This document shows positions 27,469 through 36,122 of a stretch of DNA of 54,196 nucleotides, piece after piece. The stretch covers positions 1 to 54,196 of the forward strand of contig PSPX01000007.1 in assembly GCA_004195715.1 (NCBI GenBank), written 5' to 3'. Each line of letters begins with the position of its first letter. Positions within the stretch are counted from its first letter, which is position 1. Source of the stretch: Methanobacteriota archaeon (lineage in GTDB: Archaea > Thermoplasmatota > Poseidoniia > Poseidoniales > Thalassarchaeaceae). A model generated the notes under the pieces. The model saw nothing but the letters and a program-made list of their open reading frames with translations, was not told the origin of the DNA and made no database searches. The position numbers were made by a program, and so were the translations under genes.

Positions 27469-29844
27469 ATGAGGACTCGTTCGGGAGTCGTGCTCGTCAT
27501 CTTTCTTGTGGCCGGCTTAGCACCTCTGGTGCCATTTGCCACGGCCGACACTGTGATTGGGGCCGAAGGTGCAGAGCTGCTGGAGGCTGGTGATTTCTCC
27601 GACTCAGAGGAGTGGGAGATATCCAGCACTGCCGGATTCTCCAGCGATGCCGCCGATTACTCGTTGGGCATGGTGGCCGACGGAGAACTGTCTTTCACTC
27701 ACGATAGACCGGACAATTTCCAGTATTCTACCTCATGGGCCTCAAACAGCATCACCAACTCCAATGCGACTCTGGGGGAGCCGGATTCGTACTACACTTG
27801 GTCGAAAGGACCTAACATCACGATGACAGGTTACGATTTCAGTGGACTGCATGGGATGCTGGTCGCTAATGTCTCTCTAGTGCTACACTTCTCGGTTCCA
27901 GATGCCTTGAATCAGGACTCGGTCAGGGTTATCCTGCAGAACCACGGCTCGGATAAATTGGTCGTTACCTACGCTCGAACATTCGGGCCGATATACAGAA
28001 TGACCAATCCGATGATCCTATCTCTCGACGGGCTGGCCCTTGCCGACTGGTCCTCCTTGGAGAATACTCAGTTCACCATCGATTACGTATCCACCGGAAC
28101 CACCGATGACTCCGAAGTCAGGGTAGATGCAGCGGGCCTCCGGGTGAAGTACCATCAGCCTTGGTACTCTTTCGAAACTGTCAAGGCCACCAACACGATC
28201 AACGATGTTGACTCCCCTGTAATTGACATCAGCCCATATGATGGGACGATCTCTGGGCTCTCTCAGGAGTCATGTGGGCTCGCCCCTGAAGGACCTTTAA
28301 CTGGTGAGTGGTCTTTCGACGTGGAAGTGCCACCACTACAACAGCTGGGTAGGATACACGTATTCGGCACCGGTAACCACACAATATGGGCGCTTCCTGA
28401 TGATGTAGATGGGGACTACATCGAGATGCAATCGGGGGAATTACTGGACATATCTGATTCCCTCCAGCACATTAGGATAGAAATCGAGGATGGATGCATC
28501 TTAGGTGCTCGGATTGATGTCAACGACCCTCATCTGGTGATTCAAGGATATGTCTCAGGGGCACTTGGCGGCTTAGCGGACACCAGTTACATCAGATTCG
28601 CCATCGGCAAAAGTCTGGTAGACAGCATACCACTCCAGTACGGTGCTTTCTCAGTAAACGTGCCTGTGGGTCACGCACTGCCAGTACAGGGGAACGATAT
28701 GTCGGTAGGTGTCGCTTCAAGGTTCCAATGGTCATCGAACGGGACGGCCGAATCCACTGTTGTTCACATCCAATCTATGATCATAACCGGTGGTTATTCC
28801 GTGCATTGGGACTATGACCCCGAATGCCTCGGGCTTGAGGACATGTCGTTCAATGAGGACGATGCCGGAGTCCACCTCCCTATGGATGTCAGATGCAGCG
28901 ACGACCTTACTGCTCCAGAGAATCTTGCCCTCAGTGCGGTGAGCTCCGATTCAGGGATTATCGAAGCAAGTGTGGTCGGCCAGTACATCAGGATACAGCC
29001 GGTCCGGGATGCTTGGGGCGAAGCCAGTATCGAAGTTGTTGTCAGCGATGCACTTGGGAACTCCTGGTCCGATTCGATGTTAGTAACAGTCACTCCAGTT
29101 GAAGATCCTCCTGTGCTTGATGGTCTGCCACTGACCGTCTACATAGAACTGGGGCAGACTATGGTAGTCGATCTGACAATCACTGACCCGGACACTGAAT
29201 CACTGGTACTGGAGGCCAGCAGATCGTGGGCAACCTTCGACGCAGCAGGAGACTTGGTGCTGACTCCCGTCGATTCCGGATCGCACTCAGTGACGATTTC
29301 GATAAGCGACGGTACTAATGAGATTTCTCAAAACATAGAGGTCATCGTGACCGCGAAACCTGACCTGCTGGTTGAGATGGTAGACGTGAGGAGAGATGGC
29401 GTCAGCGTGTCAAATCTAGTCGATGGTGACATCATCGAGATTCACGCATACATCAGGAACGAGGGTCGCGGAGGCGCTGATGCTGTTGACGTCAAGTGCA
29501 GAGTGGACGGAATCTTAGTGGGCGCTATAATGATTGATCATATTGAGCCCGGGGGACTCGGCGCAGCCGTCTGTGACGCACAGGTAGTGAGAGATGGCGA
29601 GACTCTGACTATCGAGGTGTCAGCGGACGGAACGGGGTCGATAGCAGAAACCTCAGAGAGCAATAACGACCGTACTGTCATTCTGGACGTGTCTGAAAGC
29701 GAAGACGGAGGGGGGGGCATCATAGACTCCCTAGACAGAGGTTCAGCTTTGGCCTTCATCTCCGTAGGAGTGGTACTAATCTCGCTCACAGCCCTGTATT
29801 TCAGCCCGAACAGAGTACGCAAGCCCTTCAATCACAAGAAGTAG
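27469..29844 (+). CDS. Secreted, C-terminally anchored surface protein with CARDB-like domain
   Basis: The protein is 791 residues. Signal peptide is MRTRSGVVLVIFLVAGLAPL and on, with cleavage probably after PFATA. The body is Asp/Ser/Thr-rich beta sequence. A cadherin/Ig-like module lies around residues 500-630 (VTPVEDPPVLDGLPLTVYI). A CARDB-like domain follows (PDLLVEMVDVRRDG ... SIAETSESNNDRTVILDV). A C-terminal membrane segment (ALAFISVGVVLISLTALYF) and short basic tail close the protein. Cysteines at DPECLGLED and DVRCSDDL may pair. No catalytic motif was recognised, so adhesion, cell-envelope or binding roles are equally possible. A T-rich run just after the stop could end transcription. 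Confidence 0.82.
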   Translation: MRTRSGVVLVIFLVAGLAPLVPFATADTVIGAEGAELLEAGDFSDSEEWEISSTAGFSSDAADYSLGMVADGELSFTHDRPDNFQYSTSWASNSITNSNATLGEPDSYYTWSKGPNITMTGYDFSGLHGMLVANVSLVLHFSVPDALNQDSVRVILQNHGSDKLVVTYARTFGPIYRMTNPMILSLDGLALADWSSLENTQFTIDYVSTGTTDDSEVRVDAAGLRVKYHQPWYSFETVKATNTINDVDSPVIDISPYDGTISGLSQESCGLAPEGPLTGEWSFDVEVPPLQQLGRIHVFGTGNHTIWALPDDVDGDYIEMQSGELLDISDSLQHIRIEIEDGCILGARIDVNDPHLVIQGYVSGALGGLADTSYIRFAIGKSLVDSIPLQYGAFSVNVPVGHALPVQGNDMSVGVASRFQWSSNGTAESTVVHIQSMIITGGYSVHWDYDPECLGLEDMSFNEDDAGVHLPMDVRCSDDLTAPENLALSAVSSDSGIIEASVVGQYIRIQPVRDAWGEASIEVVVSDALGNSWSDSMLVTVTPVEDPPVLDGLPLTVYIELGQTMVVDLTITDPDTESLVLEASRSWATFDAAGDLVLTPVDSGSHSVTISISDGTNEISQNIEVIVTAKPDLLVEMVDVRRDGVSVSNLVDGDIIEIHAYIRNEGRGGADAVDVKCRVDGILVGAIMIDHIEPGGLGAAVCDAQVVRDGETLTIEVSADGTGSIAETSESNNDRTVILDVSESEDGGGGIIDSLDRGSALAFISVGVVLISLTALYFSPNRVRKPFNHKK

Positions 29845-30061: not shown

Positions 30062-31039
30062 TTATTCTTTGGACCAACTCTGCGGGTACGTACCCGGCTC
30101 CATCATTACAGCATGAGCAATTGCGACTTCTCCAGACCTCATTTTAGGAAGAGAATCGGTGTCAACTGTTAATTTAGCTACGGATACGGCTTCGCCCTTG
30201 ATGGTCTGCACGAGTACATTGGAACCTTCCGGCACTCCCTTCTGTGCTCTGACGACACCCGGACTCGCCAGAGGTGCCCCGTGTGAGAGAGCTGCTGCTG
30301 CGCCATCTTTTACAGTGAGGGAGGGCAGACTCGAAAGCAAGACCTCGACCGGAGAGATGAGCTTCACTAAGGCGCTGTCATCACCATGCTCCCTGTGCAG
30401 AAATGCCGCATCTGCAAGTTGCTGCATGGTGCAAGCCATAGTCTGGTCGAATGGGCCTGTCCTGTCTCGATGCAGTTCAGTCAGCTCACATTTCGTGTCC
30501 AGCATCAGTCCGATGTCCTTGGCGAGGGTCCTGATGTATGTCCCGGCGCTACACGAGACTTCGAAGGCAGCGATGCGCGAGTCAGTGTCAGATTCCAGCA
30601 TCCTCAGAGAGTGGATAGTGCGGGTCCGGACTTGTATCTTGACAGCGGACTCGAGAGGAGGGACATTGTAGATCACGCCGTTGAGCAGAGATAGGGTAGA
30701 TTCGAATTCGTCGTCTGAGACATCCCTGCCAAATCGTAACACTCCGACGTATCTCTTGTCGCCCTTGAGGACTATTTCAGTGAGTCTAGTGGCCTTGCCA
30801 CACAGTATAGTCAGAAGTCCTGTTGCAAACGGATCAAGGGTACCACCGTGGCCCAGTTTCGTGATTCCCAATGTCTCCCTGGCCCAAGCCGCCAACTGGT
30901 GGCTTGAGGGACCTCTGGGCTTGTCCACTAGTACCACTCCTGCTGACAGTAGATCATCGAGCGAGCGCTCACTAGGAACGCATCCGAATCCGGGATTCGT
31001 GGAGGCCTCGGAGAGTTCCCAGAAGTTACTTTCATCCAT
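30062..31039 (-). CDS. cbf5: tRNA/rRNA pseudouridine synthase Cbf5 (archaeal TruB) with PUA domain
   Basis: The 325-residue protein has an N-terminal segment, then the TruB catalytic domain. VVLVDKPRGPSSHQLAAWA is followed by GHGGTLDPFATGLLTILCGKA, where Asp in TLDP is the catalytic residue. Next comes KRYVGVLRFGRDVSDDE, then CSAGTYIRTLAKDIGL (Arg-Thr motif). The C-terminal PUA domain (from about 245) has AAALSHGAPLASPGV and SGEVAIAHAVMM. In archaea it works with Nop10, Gar1, L7Ae and H/ACA guide RNAs on rRNA, and also on tRNA position 55. It is downstream of cmk on the same strand, as in the conserved archaeal cluster. Confidence 0.94.
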   Translation of the reverse strand: MDESNFWELSEASTNPGFGCVPSERSLDDLLSAGVVLVDKPRGPSSHQLAAWARETLGITKLGHGGTLDPFATGLLTILCGKATRLTEIVLKGDKRYVGVLRFGRDVSDDEFESTLSLLNGVIYNVPPLESAVKIQVRTRTIHSLRMLESDTDSRIAAFEVSCSAGTYIRTLAKDIGLMLDTKCELTELHRDRTGPFDQTMACTMQQLADAAFLHREHGDDSALVKLISPVEVLLSSLPSLTVKDGAAAALSHGAPLASPGVVRAQKGVPEGSNVLVQTIKGEAVSVAKLTVDTDSLPKMRSGEVAIAHAVMMEPGTYPQSWSKE

Positions 31040-31047
31040 TCTACCAC

Positions 31048-31569
31048 TTACTCCAATGCTGTGCTGACGACTCCGAAGACCTCGTTAGCATCCAATTCGT
31101 CAGCATCTACTACGAGATTGTACGGACTCATGTCATCCAGATCGATGTCGTACAGTTCACGGTACCTCCCCATGTCATTGCTCTGACGCTGCTTGGAGAG
31201 CTCCAAACAGGTTTGGTAGTCCCCCCCCTCTCGGTTCTGAATCCTTCTGGCTCTTTCTTCGTTTGAAACCGCGACCCATACTCTGAGGCACTGCAGGCCG
31301 AGTTCGTGGGCCCACCAGCCGCAGAGTCTGCTCTCAATCACCTCGGGACCTTTTGGATCACTCATTGCGTGCCTCAGAATCGTGTCCAAAGAACGGTCCA
31401 CATCCAAATCCTGTTTACACAGAGCGCTGAACTCAACCACAGTGAGGCCTCGGTTCGACGCCTCCTCTCGGAATATGTCGCCACCGTTGACAGAGGACCA
31501 GTTACGGTCCTCGCACAACTTTCCGACCAGCGTCGAAGTGCCACTTCCGGGAGGTCCGCTGACGGTCAT
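31048..31569 (-). CDS. cmk: Cytidylate kinase (archaeal type)
   Basis: The protein is 173 residues, typical for archaeal CMP kinases. The Walker A loop is MTVSGPPGSGTSTLVGKL; archaeal enzymes often have this GPPGSGTST form. The NMP-binding region is VNGGDIFREEA, and DLDVDRSLDTILRHA is also family-typical. The lid region is SNEERARRIQNREGG. It phosphorylates CMP/dCMP. ATG 31569 is chosen: it starts the Walker strand and GGAGGTGAG lies about 12 bases upstream. The frame continues upstream through the DUF106 gene but without similarity. The cbf5 gene follows after 8 bases. Confidence 0.93.
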   Translation of the reverse strand: MTVSGPPGSGTSTLVGKLCEDRNWSSVNGGDIFREEASNRGLTVVEFSALCKQDLDVDRSLDTILRHAMSDPKGPEVIESRLCGWWAHELGLQCLRVWVAVSNEERARRIQNREGGDYQTCLELSKQRQSNDMGRYRELYDIDLDDMSPYNLVVDADELDANEVFGVVSTALE

Positions 31570-31582
31570 TCTAAGTATTCGC

Positions 31583-32509
31583 TCACCTCCATTCGTTGCG
31601 GCACACATCGCACCTGAGTCTTCCCTTGGAGGTCCTCGTGACCATGTCCGAGTTACAGGAAGGACATACCGTCCCTGACTTGGGTGGGGCTGCGGAGACG
31701 TTGCCCTTCTTCCTCTGAGAGGGGGCCATTGCCTGCCCTCCTGTCTTTCTGGGCCCGTCCCTCCTTCGCTGCGCCCGGCGAGTCCTTGAATCGTCACTCG
31801 TCTTGACCTTCTGCTCGCCCAGGAGGTGAATAAGGGGCTCGGGAATAGGGTCGCCAGAGAGAACCAGAGGATGGCTCCTGTAACGGCGAATCTTGATGTG
31901 GCGGTCGATGATCCTGCCCAGAGGGGCACTCATCGTGATGTATGTGGCAATCCAAGCAGGGAATATCCACATCACCCTTTCATTGAACGACCACATTGGT
32001 GCCCAAGGCAGACTGACGAAGGCGACTCTAAACGACTCCACCTCGCTAGCCATCCAACTGAAGATAGCGATGATGAATACCATTGTGAACATCATCGGCC
32101 TCATCATAGCGGCCTGCATAGCCATCTGTTCAGGCTGCATTGACATCTGCATCTTCTGCATCTTCTCGGTTCTGGCAGTGTCACGGGCCATCTGGGCCTC
32201 TCTGAGTTGCTTGCCAATCTGACGTTGACGATGACTGATATGAGCCTGGGTCAACGGATCTGTGAACAATGCGCGAATGATGGTGTTGACGACCATGATG
32301 CTGGAGCCCACGATGAAGACAGTAGGGACGAAGTAGGCTGTGTGGAACGGCAGCAGCGGTTCGATGGCGTAGCCGGCGCCATCTGCCAGAAGGATACGGA
32401 GACTGGGATTCAACATCAGCACTACCATCATCAGCATGAGGAACAGCATGGGCATCATCATCGATGACATCGACTCGGCCTGTGGGTCACCACCTCCTGC
32501 GGAAGCCAT
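31583..32509 (-). CDS. DUF106 (EMC3/TMCO1-like, Oxa1 superfamily) membrane insertase with C-terminal zinc ribbon
   Basis: About 308 residues from ATG 32509 (MASAGGGDPQAE); an ATG at 32566 is an alternative. Membrane segments: MMMPMLFLMLMMVVLMLNP, then AYFVPTVFIVGSSIMVV. A cytoplasmic coiled coil of about 60 residues follows, ending in a Met-rich stretch (EKMQKMQMSMQPEQMAMQAA). Two more segments are MFTMVFIIAIFSWMA and FPAWIATYITMSAP. After a basic, Arg-rich linker, the C-terminus is a CxxC...CxxC zinc ribbon (TVCPSCNSDMVTRT ... LRCDVCRNEWR). Archaeal DUF106 proteins are Oxa1/YidC/EMC3 relatives that insert membrane proteins. The gene sits upstream of cmk and cbf5, its usual partners. The zinc ribbon is not part of the core family as I know it. 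Confidence 0.85.
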   Translation of the reverse strand: MASAGGGDPQAESMSSMMMPMLFLMLMMVVLMLNPSLRILLADGAGYAIEPLLPFHTAYFVPTVFIVGSSIMVVNTIIRALFTDPLTQAHISHRQRQIGKQLREAQMARDTARTEKMQKMQMSMQPEQMAMQAAMMRPMMFTMVFIIAIFSWMASEVESFRVAFVSLPWAPMWSFNERVMWIFPAWIATYITMSAPLGRIIDRHIKIRRYRSHPLVLSGDPIPEPLIHLLGEQKVKTSDDSRTRRAQRRRDGPRKTGGQAMAPSQRKKGNVSAAPPKSGTVCPSCNSDMVTRTSKGRLRCDVCRNEWR

Positions 32510-32577
32510 GGGCACGCGTTCGGACCGAGTAGGAAGAACGCTTCGGTGGACGCCATAGGCGTCCAAGTCGATTCACT

Positions 32578-35151
32578 TCAAAACGAATAGCTGCAGACGG
32601 TGCAAACAGAGGCGCCTATCTGAGCTTCAGAACCGCAGATGGGGCATACCTCGCCCTCGGGCTCCGGTTCTGGCTCCGGTTCTGGCTCCGGTTCTGGCTC
32701 CGGCTCCGGTTCTGGCTCTGGCTCTGGCTCCGGTTCTGGCTCTGGCTCTGGGTCGGGCGGGTTCTGCTCCTCAAGCCATTCAGGCACATTGGGCTCCTCG
32801 TCGACCTCATCGCCGAAGGTGGCACCGTGGAAATCTTGCGCATCAGAGACCTTGTATTCCGACTCAGTATCGCCCTGTATCTCGTAGGTCACCTCAATCC
32901 TCTCTCCTTGCTTGATCCTCCCAACCTTCCACTCCACATGAGTCCCCTCCGGAGCCGACTCCTTGTCCATCTTTGTGTCGCACTCGCCGTCAACCGAGGA
33001 GCGGACAGTCGACTTCTCGATGGAGAATGTCCCCGGGACTACATCGTGCAGGACGAGATCGTCGAGAGCGCTATCAGAGTTGTTAATGAACATCAGCAGC
33101 ACCTCGTACCTGCCTGCGCTTCCTGCCGGGAAGACTTCCTTGCCAGTGCTGATGTTGCGGCGGCGGTGCACCACTCTCAACTGCGGCGGCCTCACAACCG
33201 CTCTAGTTGCTACAGGTCCAAACTTCTCAGAGCCAAAATCAGCCCTAATTGGTGCTGCCAGAAGGCCATTACTAGGAGAGGGATCAGGGGCGTGCAGCGG
33301 ATACCGCAGAACCATCGTCTTACCGGGCTGTAAACCCAACGGCGCCGAGGTCCCGACTGTAATTCTCAGACTGTTACCACTGCTGTCCGGTGACACCAAT
33401 CTCTCTTCTAACTGGATGCCCTCTATGACCTCAATGAGGTATTGCTCCTCATTCAGTTCGGTACCTTCTATCTCGATGCTCACATCGGACTCGGCCGGGG
33501 GCTCGAAGACGCCGGGTACGTCGTCGAGTAGTCGCATCACGTTGATTGGAGCTGAGCCGGTATTCTCGATTGAGATCGTGACTTCCAAGTCCGACGATAC
33601 GAAGGACTTGATTCTAGATTTATCGTACTGCTTGAGCAACCTAGCATCGAGCACTGTCAGCTTCTGCTCCTTGAGGCCTATTGAGCCGGTCGAAGCGACC
33701 GAGACTCTAGGGAGGATGGATGACCGGAACTCGTGCGTGAAACTCGGCGTGTCTGCCTCTACTCTCTTCTCCATAGAGCTCCAGCTGCCTTCGGGCGGGA
33801 CGTCCCGCCTGAGGTCAGATACATCTAGAATGGGATTATCCCTGCCCGATAGCCAAACGGTGACCCCCGATAGAGTGACCACGAAAGAGGAGCGGTTCTC
33901 GAAGACCGATTTGCAGTGCCAGATTCCTGGGCGGTCATCCTCCACCTTGTCTACCCTCATCATGTGCAGCGTCGAACCAGATACACGGTCGAAGTCGACT
34001 CCCGAAACCGCAGCTTCGGCCGAGAAGTTAGCCGAAGCTACTCCAGCAGATATCCTCTCTACTCCTTTGGTGGTGACCATTGGGGAAAGGGAAAGGGTCC
34101 TGCTCTCACCCACATTCAGTCTGCCTATCTCCCATGAAATCGACGATTCGAAGACGCTGTAATCTTGACCGTCGGGGATGTCGAAGTTCTCTGGAAAGTC
34201 TCTGCTAACCTCTACCTCAAACAGAGGTACTGGAGAGACGTTCTGGACCTCGATATGCATCTCAATCTCCTGAGGCTCTGCGGAGTAAATCAGCGACAGA
34301 CTATCCTCTTGGTCCCTCTCGGGATTGGTGTCCATTACCTCCTTGAGGACTAGCATCCTCGTCCCACTGGCCGAATACGGAATCACTGTTTCCTCAGTAG
34401 CTTCAAGTTCACGTACCGAGATTGAACGGCCTCCGATGTCCGTAGAGTCAGTAGAGGAAAGCAGGACCTCAATATCCCATGCCCTGTGCTTCTTGCTTGA
34501 GTTCCTCAATATCAGCTCCCCTTCTATCGACTGCCGCCTGACCGATCCGTCCGAGTTAAGCGTTGACGTCTCAATCTCACTCAGAGTCGCGTGCAGCTTG
34601 TCCCCCGGTATCGCGTCCACCTCAGTTGCTGACCTCAAGTGAGGATGGGTTGCTGCTGCGACAACAGGCTTCGACAGAGCCTCGGCTATGTCTTTGGATG
34701 AGTCGACAATCTCGCTGGAAACTTCCACAATTCCTTCAACGGCTGAGTCTACAGCACTACTGACCGAGCCGATAGCGAGTTCTCCAACAACTTCAGAGCC
34801 GGCCTCAAAGACTTCCTCCGCGACATCTTCGACGGCACCCTTCAGAGCAGCAAGTGAATCTTGCAAGGAGGTTGTCTCATCTGGCTCACCTTCTGGTTCG
34901 GACTCGTTCGACTCGTCAAAGCCCAGCGGAAGGGGCGGCGGGGAATCGAATCCAGGAGGCGGCGGAGGTACTTCGAGACTTGATTCAGATTCTGGGACAA
35001 TCTCCCTGTCTTCGAGTTCCATCATGCCGGGAGGAGGAGGCGGGGGCTGTGGAATCTGTTCTTCCTCGGAGTCCTCATCGTCTTCCTCCTTGAAGCCGAG
35101 AGGAGGAGGAGGAGGGAATCCAGGAGGTAGGGGAGGAGGGTCTTCTGACAT
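32578..35151 (-). CDS. Large proline-rich protein with DUF11-like repeats, Glu-Pro linker and zinc ribbon; no signal peptide
   Basis: From ATG 35151 it is 857 residues. Residues 1-90 are acidic and proline-rich with repeated PPPPPG/PPPLP patches, followed by an acidic/Ala helix region. The middle has repeated beta domains whose pattern matches DUF11-like domains, for example ISWEIGRLNVGESRTLSL, NTGSAPINVMRLLDDVPGVF and NNSDSALDDLVLHDVVPGTF followed by VEWKVGRIKQGERIEVTYE. Then comes a run of about 16 Glu-Pro pairs, then a zinc ribbon CPICGSEAQ ... CTVCSYSF at the end. There is no signal peptide and no membrane segment, so it appears cytoplasmic or secreted by another way. It precedes the DUF106 gene by 68 bases (11 if DUF106 starts at its upstream ATG). 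A GGGGTG ribosome site lies before the ATG. Function unknown; scaffold or adaptor is a guess. Confidence 0.85.
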   Translation of the reverse strand: MSEDPPPLPPGFPPPPPLGFKEEDDEDSEEEQIPQPPPPPPGMMELEDREIVPESESSLEVPPPPPGFDSPPPLPLGFDESNESEPEGEPDETTSLQDSLAALKGAVEDVAEEVFEAGSEVVGELAIGSVSSAVDSAVEGIVEVSSEIVDSSKDIAEALSKPVVAAATHPHLRSATEVDAIPGDKLHATLSEIETSTLNSDGSVRRQSIEGELILRNSSKKHRAWDIEVLLSSTDSTDIGGRSISVRELEATEETVIPYSASGTRMLVLKEVMDTNPERDQEDSLSLIYSAEPQEIEMHIEVQNVSPVPLFEVEVSRDFPENFDIPDGQDYSVFESSISWEIGRLNVGESRTLSLSPMVTTKGVERISAGVASANFSAEAAVSGVDFDRVSGSTLHMMRVDKVEDDRPGIWHCKSVFENRSSFVVTLSGVTVWLSGRDNPILDVSDLRRDVPPEGSWSSMEKRVEADTPSFTHEFRSSILPRVSVASTGSIGLKEQKLTVLDARLLKQYDKSRIKSFVSSDLEVTISIENTGSAPINVMRLLDDVPGVFEPPAESDVSIEIEGTELNEEQYLIEVIEGIQLEERLVSPDSSGNSLRITVGTSAPLGLQPGKTMVLRYPLHAPDPSPSNGLLAAPIRADFGSEKFGPVATRAVVRPPQLRVVHRRRNISTGKEVFPAGSAGRYEVLLMFINNSDSALDDLVLHDVVPGTFSIEKSTVRSSVDGECDTKMDKESAPEGTHVEWKVGRIKQGERIEVTYEIQGDTESEYKVSDAQDFHGATFGDEVDEEPNVPEWLEEQNPPDPEPEPEPEPEPEPEPEPEPEPEPEPEPEPEPEGEVCPICGSEAQIGASVCTVCSYSF
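32656..32757. repeat. Low-complexity hexanucleotide tract coding for Glu-Pro repeats
   Basis: On the plus strand this is a run of near-identical GGCTCCGGTTCT / GGCTCTGGCTCT units. On the minus strand it encodes the Glu-Pro linker of the large DUF11-like protein. The units differ at third positions, which suggests selection on the protein as well as slippage. Length may vary between strains. Confidence 0.8.
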
Positions 35152-35203: not shown

Positions 35204-35243
35204 ATTGCTTGTCAGACTTCGAGTCAAATCTGGGGCTTCACGA

Positions 35244-36122
35244 ATGGTTGAAGTTCTCTCGCCCTCGGGCGGGGACGTGAGTAGTCAAGACGGTACGGCC
35301 CCTCCAGTGCTATTCGTAGTAGGCACCGCTGGTGCAGGCAAGAGTTCTCTCGTCACCGCTTTCCAGAGATGGGCTAGATTCCTCGAGGTCGATGCTCTCG
35401 CTATCAACCTCGACCCTGGTGCTGAGAAAGTGGATTACGACACGGAGTTTGATGTCAGGGATCTGGTTTCTCTGTCCGATGTAATGATTGAGTACGAACT
35501 TGGCCCCAACGGAGCACAGATTCTAGCTGCCGACTTAGTGGCATCTCGGGCTGACGAAGTCTTCGATGAGATTGAAGGGTTGTCATGCGACATACTAATT
35601 GTAGATACTCCAGGGCAGGTGGAGTTGTTCGCCTTCAGAGAGGCCTCCAGCCATCTCGTGAGCGTCATAGGGCAGGGCAGGGCCTGTTTGATCTTCCTCT
35701 TCGACCCGATGCTCTCACAGACACCCAGTGGCTTCGTTTCGCAGATGCTGCTATCGTCGATAGTCCACTTCAGACTTGGGTTGCCGACCGCCAACTTCCT
35801 CTCTAAGTCCGATCTGCTGGAGCCTGAAGCCCTCGAGAGAGTACTGGATTGGGGTGAGAATCTCGACATTCTCGAGGCCGCCTTGTATGAAGAGTCGGCT
35901 CAGCAGGCCCTGGACGTGCACTCAGGGAGTCAGAGAGCAGAGTTTGCGATAGGTCAGTTGAGGATGATGCAGCACGCCTCGATACAACCGGGATTGATTC
36001 CTCTCTCCAGCGAGAACGAGGAGGGGCTTGCTGATGTGCTGACCTTTGCCCAGACCATATTCGGAGGCATGGCAGATACGAGAGACGGATACGCGGGAGA
36101 CATTGAGCATGAACGAGGCTGA
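35244..36122 (+). CDS. GPN-loop GTPase
   Basis: The 292-residue protein starts at ATG 35244 (MVEVLSPSGGDV). Walker A is VVGTAGAGKSSLV. The family's GPN tripeptide is in YELGPNGAQ, preceded by NLDPGAEKVDYDTEFDVRD (the DPG/DPA...YxxxxDIRD region). Switch II is VDTPGQVELF and the NKxD-like motif is FLSKSDLL, where Ser-Lys-Ser-Asp replaces the usual Asn-Lys-x-Asp. GPN GTPases are archaeal-eukaryotic dimers; eukaryotic ones assist RNA polymerase II assembly and nuclear import, while the archaeal role is unsettled. The open frame goes back to 35205. The gene overlaps argF by 14 bases. Its upstream region is shared with the divergent large DUF11-like gene. Confidence 0.91.
   Translation: MVEVLSPSGGDVSSQDGTAPPVLFVVGTAGAGKSSLVTAFQRWARFLEVDALAINLDPGAEKVDYDTEFDVRDLVSLSDVMIEYELGPNGAQILAADLVASRADEVFDEIEGLSCDILIVDTPGQVELFAFREASSHLVSVIGQGRACLIFLFDPMLSQTPSGFVSQMLLSSIVHFRLGLPTANFLSKSDLLEPEALERVLDWGENLDILEAALYEESAQQALDVHSGSQRAEFAIGQLRMMQHASIQPGLIPLSSENEEGLADVLTFAQTIFGGMADTRDGYAGDIEHERG

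Follow-up and report, generated by a model that had tools for sequence, protein, structure and literature searches.

A signal-less DUF11 protein family encoded beside the EMC3 insertase gene in Poseidoniales

The window analysed here is a stretch of 54,196 nucleotides from a Poseidoniales genome. It encodes an 857-residue protein that contains a DUF11 domain, lacks a signal and a membrane segment, and ends in a putative four-cysteine zinc ribbon, and its gene directly precedes that of the EMC3/DUF106 membrane insertase. Proteins with DUF11 are generally taken to belong to the cell surface. The locus raises the question of where such a protein works and whether its position next to an insertase gene is meaningful. 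The first-pass annotation of this DNA suggested a cytoplasmic scaffold connected with membrane protein insertion.

Composition of the protein and its conserved core

The protein starts with MSEDPPPLPPGF. An alternative in-frame ATG lies upstream at 35205 and extends the product to 875 residues. The layout read from the sequence at first pass (proline-rich N-terminus, DUF11 domains, Glu-Pro linker and ribbon) was confirmed. PF01345 scores above its Pfam gathering cut-off, the linker is encoded by a 6-bp unit in 16 copies, and the four cysteines of the ribbon are invariant in 28 homologues; the ribbon profile itself (Zn_ribbon_3 / Zn_Ribbon_1) reaches 9.7 bits, where the cut-off is 27. The nearest named relatives of the gene show 72–95% identity, among them genomes of Candidatus Thalassarchaeum and of MED-G34 (Marine Group II). 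From these named relatives we assigned the window's family (f1) to Thalassarchaeaceae; the second family (f2) is taken as Poseidoniaceae, since the order has two named families. We found no description of the core-protein family in the literature, and no relatives of the protein were found on viral contigs or plasmids.

Table 1. Features of the locus in window coordinates.
Feature	Position	Strand	Remarks
ORF, signal-less DUF11 protein	32578..35151	-	857 aa, ATG at 35151
Proline-rich segment, residues 1-80	34912..35151	-	PPG-hydrophobic repeats (PPGF, PPGM, PPGF and PLGF variants)
Acidic helical segment, residues 84-168	34648..34902	-	common to the eS1 C-terminal tail of the same genus
Core of tandem beta-sandwich domains, residues 176-784	32800..34626	-	~609 aa
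DUF11 domain, residues 294-374	34030..34272	-	35 bits, cut-off 24.6; predicted beta-sandwich
Second DUF11-like domain, residues ~672-757	32881..33138	-	hhalign 93.8% to the first; predicted beta-sandwich
(Glu-Pro)n acidic linker	32656..32751	-	6-bp tandem repeat x 16
C-terminal four-cysteine putative zinc ribbon	32581..32655	-	C836, C839, C850, C853; CPICG-x9-CTVC
EMC3/DUF106 membrane insertase	31583..32566	-	PF01956 59.9 bits, cut-off 27.1; 11 bp downstream of the DUF11 protein gene
C-terminal zinc ribbon of EMC3	~31586-31687	-	
Archaeal (d)CMP kinase Cmk	31048..31611	-	TIGR02173 110.6 bits
Cbf5 pseudouridine synthase	30062..31039	-	330 bits
GPN-loop GTPase	35205..36122	+	divergent upstream neighbour; PF03029 178.5 bits

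The reading frame is intact in 125 of 145 Poseidoniales genomes from both families, which rules out a chance ORF. We checked 28 genomes of the order for absence, nearly all of which gave no hit or only fragments. In 12 of them EMC3 is missing as well, and in most of the others the contig stops no more than about 1 kb from EMC3; several keep the last residues of the protein. The missing gene in Poseidoniales is mostly an assembly artefact. The repeats within the gene (32656–32751 in the window) break many assemblies, and several Poseidoniales contigs end inside the gene, mimicking absence.

Among 28 aligned Poseidoniales homologues, the core has a nearly constant length (608–614 residues in all 28) and shares 32–85% identity with the window's protein, and DUF11 is matched in every one at an E-value of 0.01 or better. 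Profile-profile comparison relates residues ~672–757 to the DUF11 domain, and a third DUF11-like domain may be present at residues ~510–560. Weak matches to Alpha_adaptinC2, a cytosolic adaptor domain, were observed in three family members, and a profile search against solved structures gave only weak matches to ribbons or proline-rich segments. The AlphaFold2 models were built from only 10 close sequences and have low pLDDT values (45 for the core and 57 for the C-terminal half). The domain-wise structure prediction called for at first pass thus returned beta-sandwiches for the DUF11-like domains within models of low overall confidence. The modelled domains resemble integrin legs, alpha-2-macroglobulin, AP2 mu, TRAP and pilins. 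The scores of these matches differ from one another by no more than about two Z units, so the fold is generic and uninformative on function, and we based no functional assignment on it.

Neither a signal nor a transmembrane segment was found in 62 Poseidoniales and eight other homologous sequences, and the 875-residue form likewise has no signal. The most hydrophobic 19-residue stretch averages 1.57 in those 62 sequences, compared with 2.2–2.5 for the membrane and secreted proteins of the window. An N-terminal signal in homologues, which the first-pass annotation had named beforehand as evidence against its proposal, is absent from every homologue examined. Extracellular placement is usual but not defining for DUF11, and the lack of signal and membrane segments speaks against it for this family. 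Export without a classical signal, followed by a role at the cell surface like that of other DUF11 proteins, is highly improbable: most known DUF11 proteins are surface proteins, and integrin legs and pilins give the top structural matches, but the matching fold is also present in cytosolic AP2 mu, no homologue examined carries a signal or membrane segment, and the four-cysteine ribbon is invariant.

Flexible ends of the Poseidoniales proteins

The ends are variable in Poseidoniales, with ~16–385 residues before the core and 60–180 after it. PPG-hydrophobic motifs occur 115 times in the homologues, against 4.3 expected from shuffles (at most 11 in 1000 shuffles). Thalassarchaeaceae mostly have Phe or Leu at the last position of the motif, where Poseidoniaceae have mainly Met; the repeats are absent from genus g2. 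In the protein's own genome, no GYF domain (PF02213, PF14237) scores above the cut-off; a divergent GYF-type reader of the motifs is possible there. A BLAST search for other PPGF-tailed proteins returned only the original, and composition correction probably hides others.

The motif was also seen elsewhere in one genome (G009). The SRP receptor FtsY (L112:1342-2640, G009:C66) contains PPPPPPGF near its N-terminus, a feature confined to genus g3. In this genome FtsY seemed to tie the PPPGF motifs to the SRP pathway; we rejected such a tie on its confinement to one genus. A giant calcium-repeat surface protein (L107:2-3319, G009:C90) carries, past its C-terminal transmembrane helix, a presumably cytosolic tail in which PPAPPGF/PPPPPGF is repeated five times; the N-terminus of the 857-residue protein has this motif too. 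We treat both cases as lineage-specific hints.

The acidic segment aligns with the tail of a ribosomal protein that we called eS1 from its sequence rather than by profile (z = 17 against shuffles). This protein (L108:802-1821, G048:C36) has a homologous acidic helical C-terminal tail followed by a SAP-like end. As far as the alignment can tell, tails have been exchanged within one genus between eS1 and the DUF11 protein. Poseidoniaceae tails often contain an EF-hand-like motif, and one has a SAP domain. In the window's own genome, a membrane-anchored surface protein (L003:1399-3108, G000:C1) has a tail with a Glu-Pro run and the end LPEGWSQEQWVHYGQRWLDQQ, which may be a shared cytosolic signal.

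Gene neighbourhoods and a possible role in membrane-protein biogenesis

The gene had been placed in line with DUF106, Cmk and Cbf5, and all three do lie downstream on the same strand; the Cmk ORF as listed starts further upstream and overlaps EMC3. Of the 30 loci whose contigs reach far enough downstream, 29 have EMC3 immediately after the DUF11 protein gene in the same orientation. This adjacency is conserved in both Poseidoniales families, followed by Cmk and Cbf5, with the GPN GTPase divergent. A loss of the link to the DUF106 locus, which the first-pass annotation had also named as counting against its reading, was therefore not found. What is conserved is not the pair alone, because the whole block of RibA, surface protein, Cbf5, Cmk, EMC3, DUF11 protein, divergent GPN, OTC and UbiA is kept across the order, and at least one genome (G068) has the DUF11 protein gene and EMC3 on different contigs. 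The gap between the two genes is mostly 0–120 bp in Thalassarchaeaceae, and most members of that family have 76 bp or less. It measures 260–700 bp in f2 and more than 1 kb in genus g6. Gaps of 260–1815 bp, seen in Poseidoniaceae and some Thalassarchaeaceae, make co-transcription doubtful at those loci. In some genomes of genus g12 (L157, L158), another same-strand gene with QPVQPNYAQPPQ-type repeats lies upstream of EMC3. The surface protein that adjoins Cbf5 across the order (27469–29844 in the window) has a signal, a CARDB-like part and a C-terminal transmembrane segment.

A C-terminal zinc ribbon, noted at first pass on the DUF106 protein of the window, is present on every complete Poseidoniales EMC3 examined. 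In family f3, which we infer to be the sister order MGIII, no core homologue was found. The MGIII EMC3 is ~220 residues long, lacks the ribbon and is encoded in the ribosomal operon, behind SecY and a gene resembling adenylate kinase; this comparison bears out the displacement of EMC3 from the ribosomal/SecY operon in Poseidoniales. The core protein and the EMC3 ribbon both fall on one branch; the coincidence is suggestive, but it amounts to a single event.

A search of the phylum Thermoplasmatota with the core profile overturned the view that the family is confined to Poseidoniales. Full-length relatives with 22–26% identity (E-values down to 1e-86) occur in three other families, f11, f28 and f33. 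They have 660–680 residues and keep many invariant core residues, but have no signal, PPG repeats or ribbon. This core-only form is new here. The proline-rich end and the ribbon, prominent in the first description of the window's protein, are thus present but not family-defining; they are Poseidoniales additions within an old family.

The core-only genes have different neighbours. RqcH, which is not adjacent in Poseidoniales, is the divergent neighbour of the core gene at 9 of the 10 loci outside that order (eight in f11 and one in f28). Its assignment rests on RqcH_arch scores of 460–481 bits (cut-off 400) in three f11 loci and 195 bits for the truncated f28 copy, and on similarity for the others. 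On the other side, wherever the contig reaches, f11 and f28 have a convergent gene whose product is a membrane protein carrying motifs like those of signal peptidase I (VVQSGSM, IIHRAV, TKGDDN); it scores 27–29 bits, below the family cut-off of 51.85. The f33 homologue has neither RqcH nor the signal-peptidase-like gene adjacent on its visible side.

Judged solely from gene neighbours, the DUF11 protein may be soluble and cytoplasmic and serve as a scaffold or adaptor in the biogenesis of membrane proteins and the quality control of nascent chains. We favour this reading tentatively, at less than even confidence, because three separate neighbourhood links (EMC3, RqcH and the signal-peptidase-like gene) point to these processes. 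It also fits the missing signal and membrane segments, the constant core length, the invariant cysteines, the ribbon found on EMC3 in Poseidoniales but not in MGIII, the weak Alpha_adaptinC2 matches and the FtsY motif of one genus. The scaffold proposed at first pass is partly supported: the latter two neighbours strengthen the biogenesis role, whereas a tie specific to DUF106 gains nothing from them. Counting against an adaptor, different lineages have different genes next to the core, and the Poseidoniales block includes the unrelated housekeeping genes OTC, UbiA, RibA and Cbf5. The wide gaps to EMC3 at some loci, the separate contigs in G068, the f33 locus with neither neighbour, the loss of PPG repeats in genus g2, the confinement of the FtsY motif to one genus and the lack of a GYF domain above the cut-off in the genome weigh against it as well.

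The main rival is a cytoplasmic structural or scaffold protein unconnected to membrane insertion, which would lie next to EMC3 only as an inherited passenger of a housekeeping block that rearranges slowly. Conservation of everything from RibA to UbiA across the order is consistent with this, as is the persistence of the divergent GPN pair in G068 where EMC3 lies elsewhere, and we consider it a credible if uncertain explanation. Against it, the core gene adjoins RqcH and the signal-peptidase-like gene, of the same broad pathway, in two families whose synteny is otherwise wholly different.

It is also conceivable, if distinctly unlikely, that the protein acts on large secreted surface proteins of beta-sandwich type, as a holding chaperone or a binder of nascent chains, and keeps them unfolded or associated until they are exported. 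Beta-sandwich repeats in the cytosol that are akin to surface-protein domains, encoded near genes of export and quality control, would suit such a function. On the other hand, the protein has no homology to a known chaperone, and the core models (pLDDT 45–57) are too poor for judging a client-binding surface.

If the protein is a biogenesis adaptor, its core might form a rod that serves as spacer and platform and binds a ribosome-, translocon- or insertase-associated partner, and the DUF11 domains would act as cytosolic protein-binding modules, like adaptin appendages, instead of surface adhesion domains. The PPG-hydrophobic repeats of Poseidoniales could recruit a putative reader multivalently. 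The C-terminal ribbon would dock on an RNA or protein surface, ribosomal or insertase, and perhaps pairs with the ribbon on Poseidoniales EMC3. A broader proposal, in which an archaeal cytosolic factor not described before couples RqcH ribosome rescue, signal peptide processing and EMC3 insertion through intracellular DUF11 adaptors, and Poseidoniales gained the PPG recruitment tail and a ribbon matching one that EMC3 acquired, seems unlikely as a whole. Archaeal insertase partners are little known, and if the neighbourhood link is functional, the protein would be a candidate for an archaeal co-factor both of insertion by EMC3-type proteins and of quality control at the ribosome.

Comparison with known systems

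One core domain aligns to TRAP chains (Z ~10.5–10.9), but many unrelated sandwiches score just as well. The domains of TRAP are anchored in the membrane and face the lumen, whereas the 857-residue protein has no transmembrane segment. The protein shares the beta-sandwich with cytosolic adaptor appendages, and one domain matches AP2 mu over 122 residues (Z ~10.6, rmsd 2.5). Overall homology to AP2 mu or Alpha_adaptinC2 is absent, and the matches to integrin legs and alpha-2-macroglobulin are equally good, so the likeness is generic.

GYF domains in eukaryotes read PPG-hydrophobic motifs in ligands such as ZNF598 and TTP (both PPPPGF) or TNRC6A (PPGL) (PMC12249416). The archaeal protein has repeated motifs of the same form, but it is unrelated to these ligands in sequence, and its genome has no GYF domain above the cut-off. 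ZNF598 also acts in ribosome quality control.

With DUF11 (PF01345) proteins, the family shares a core domain above the curated cut-off and a second DUF11-like domain found by profile comparison. Unlike them, the protein described here has no signal, transmembrane segment or surface anchor; it carries PPG and zinc-ribbon ends and has biogenesis genes as neighbours. A conserved cytosolic DUF11 family should change the annotation of such genes.
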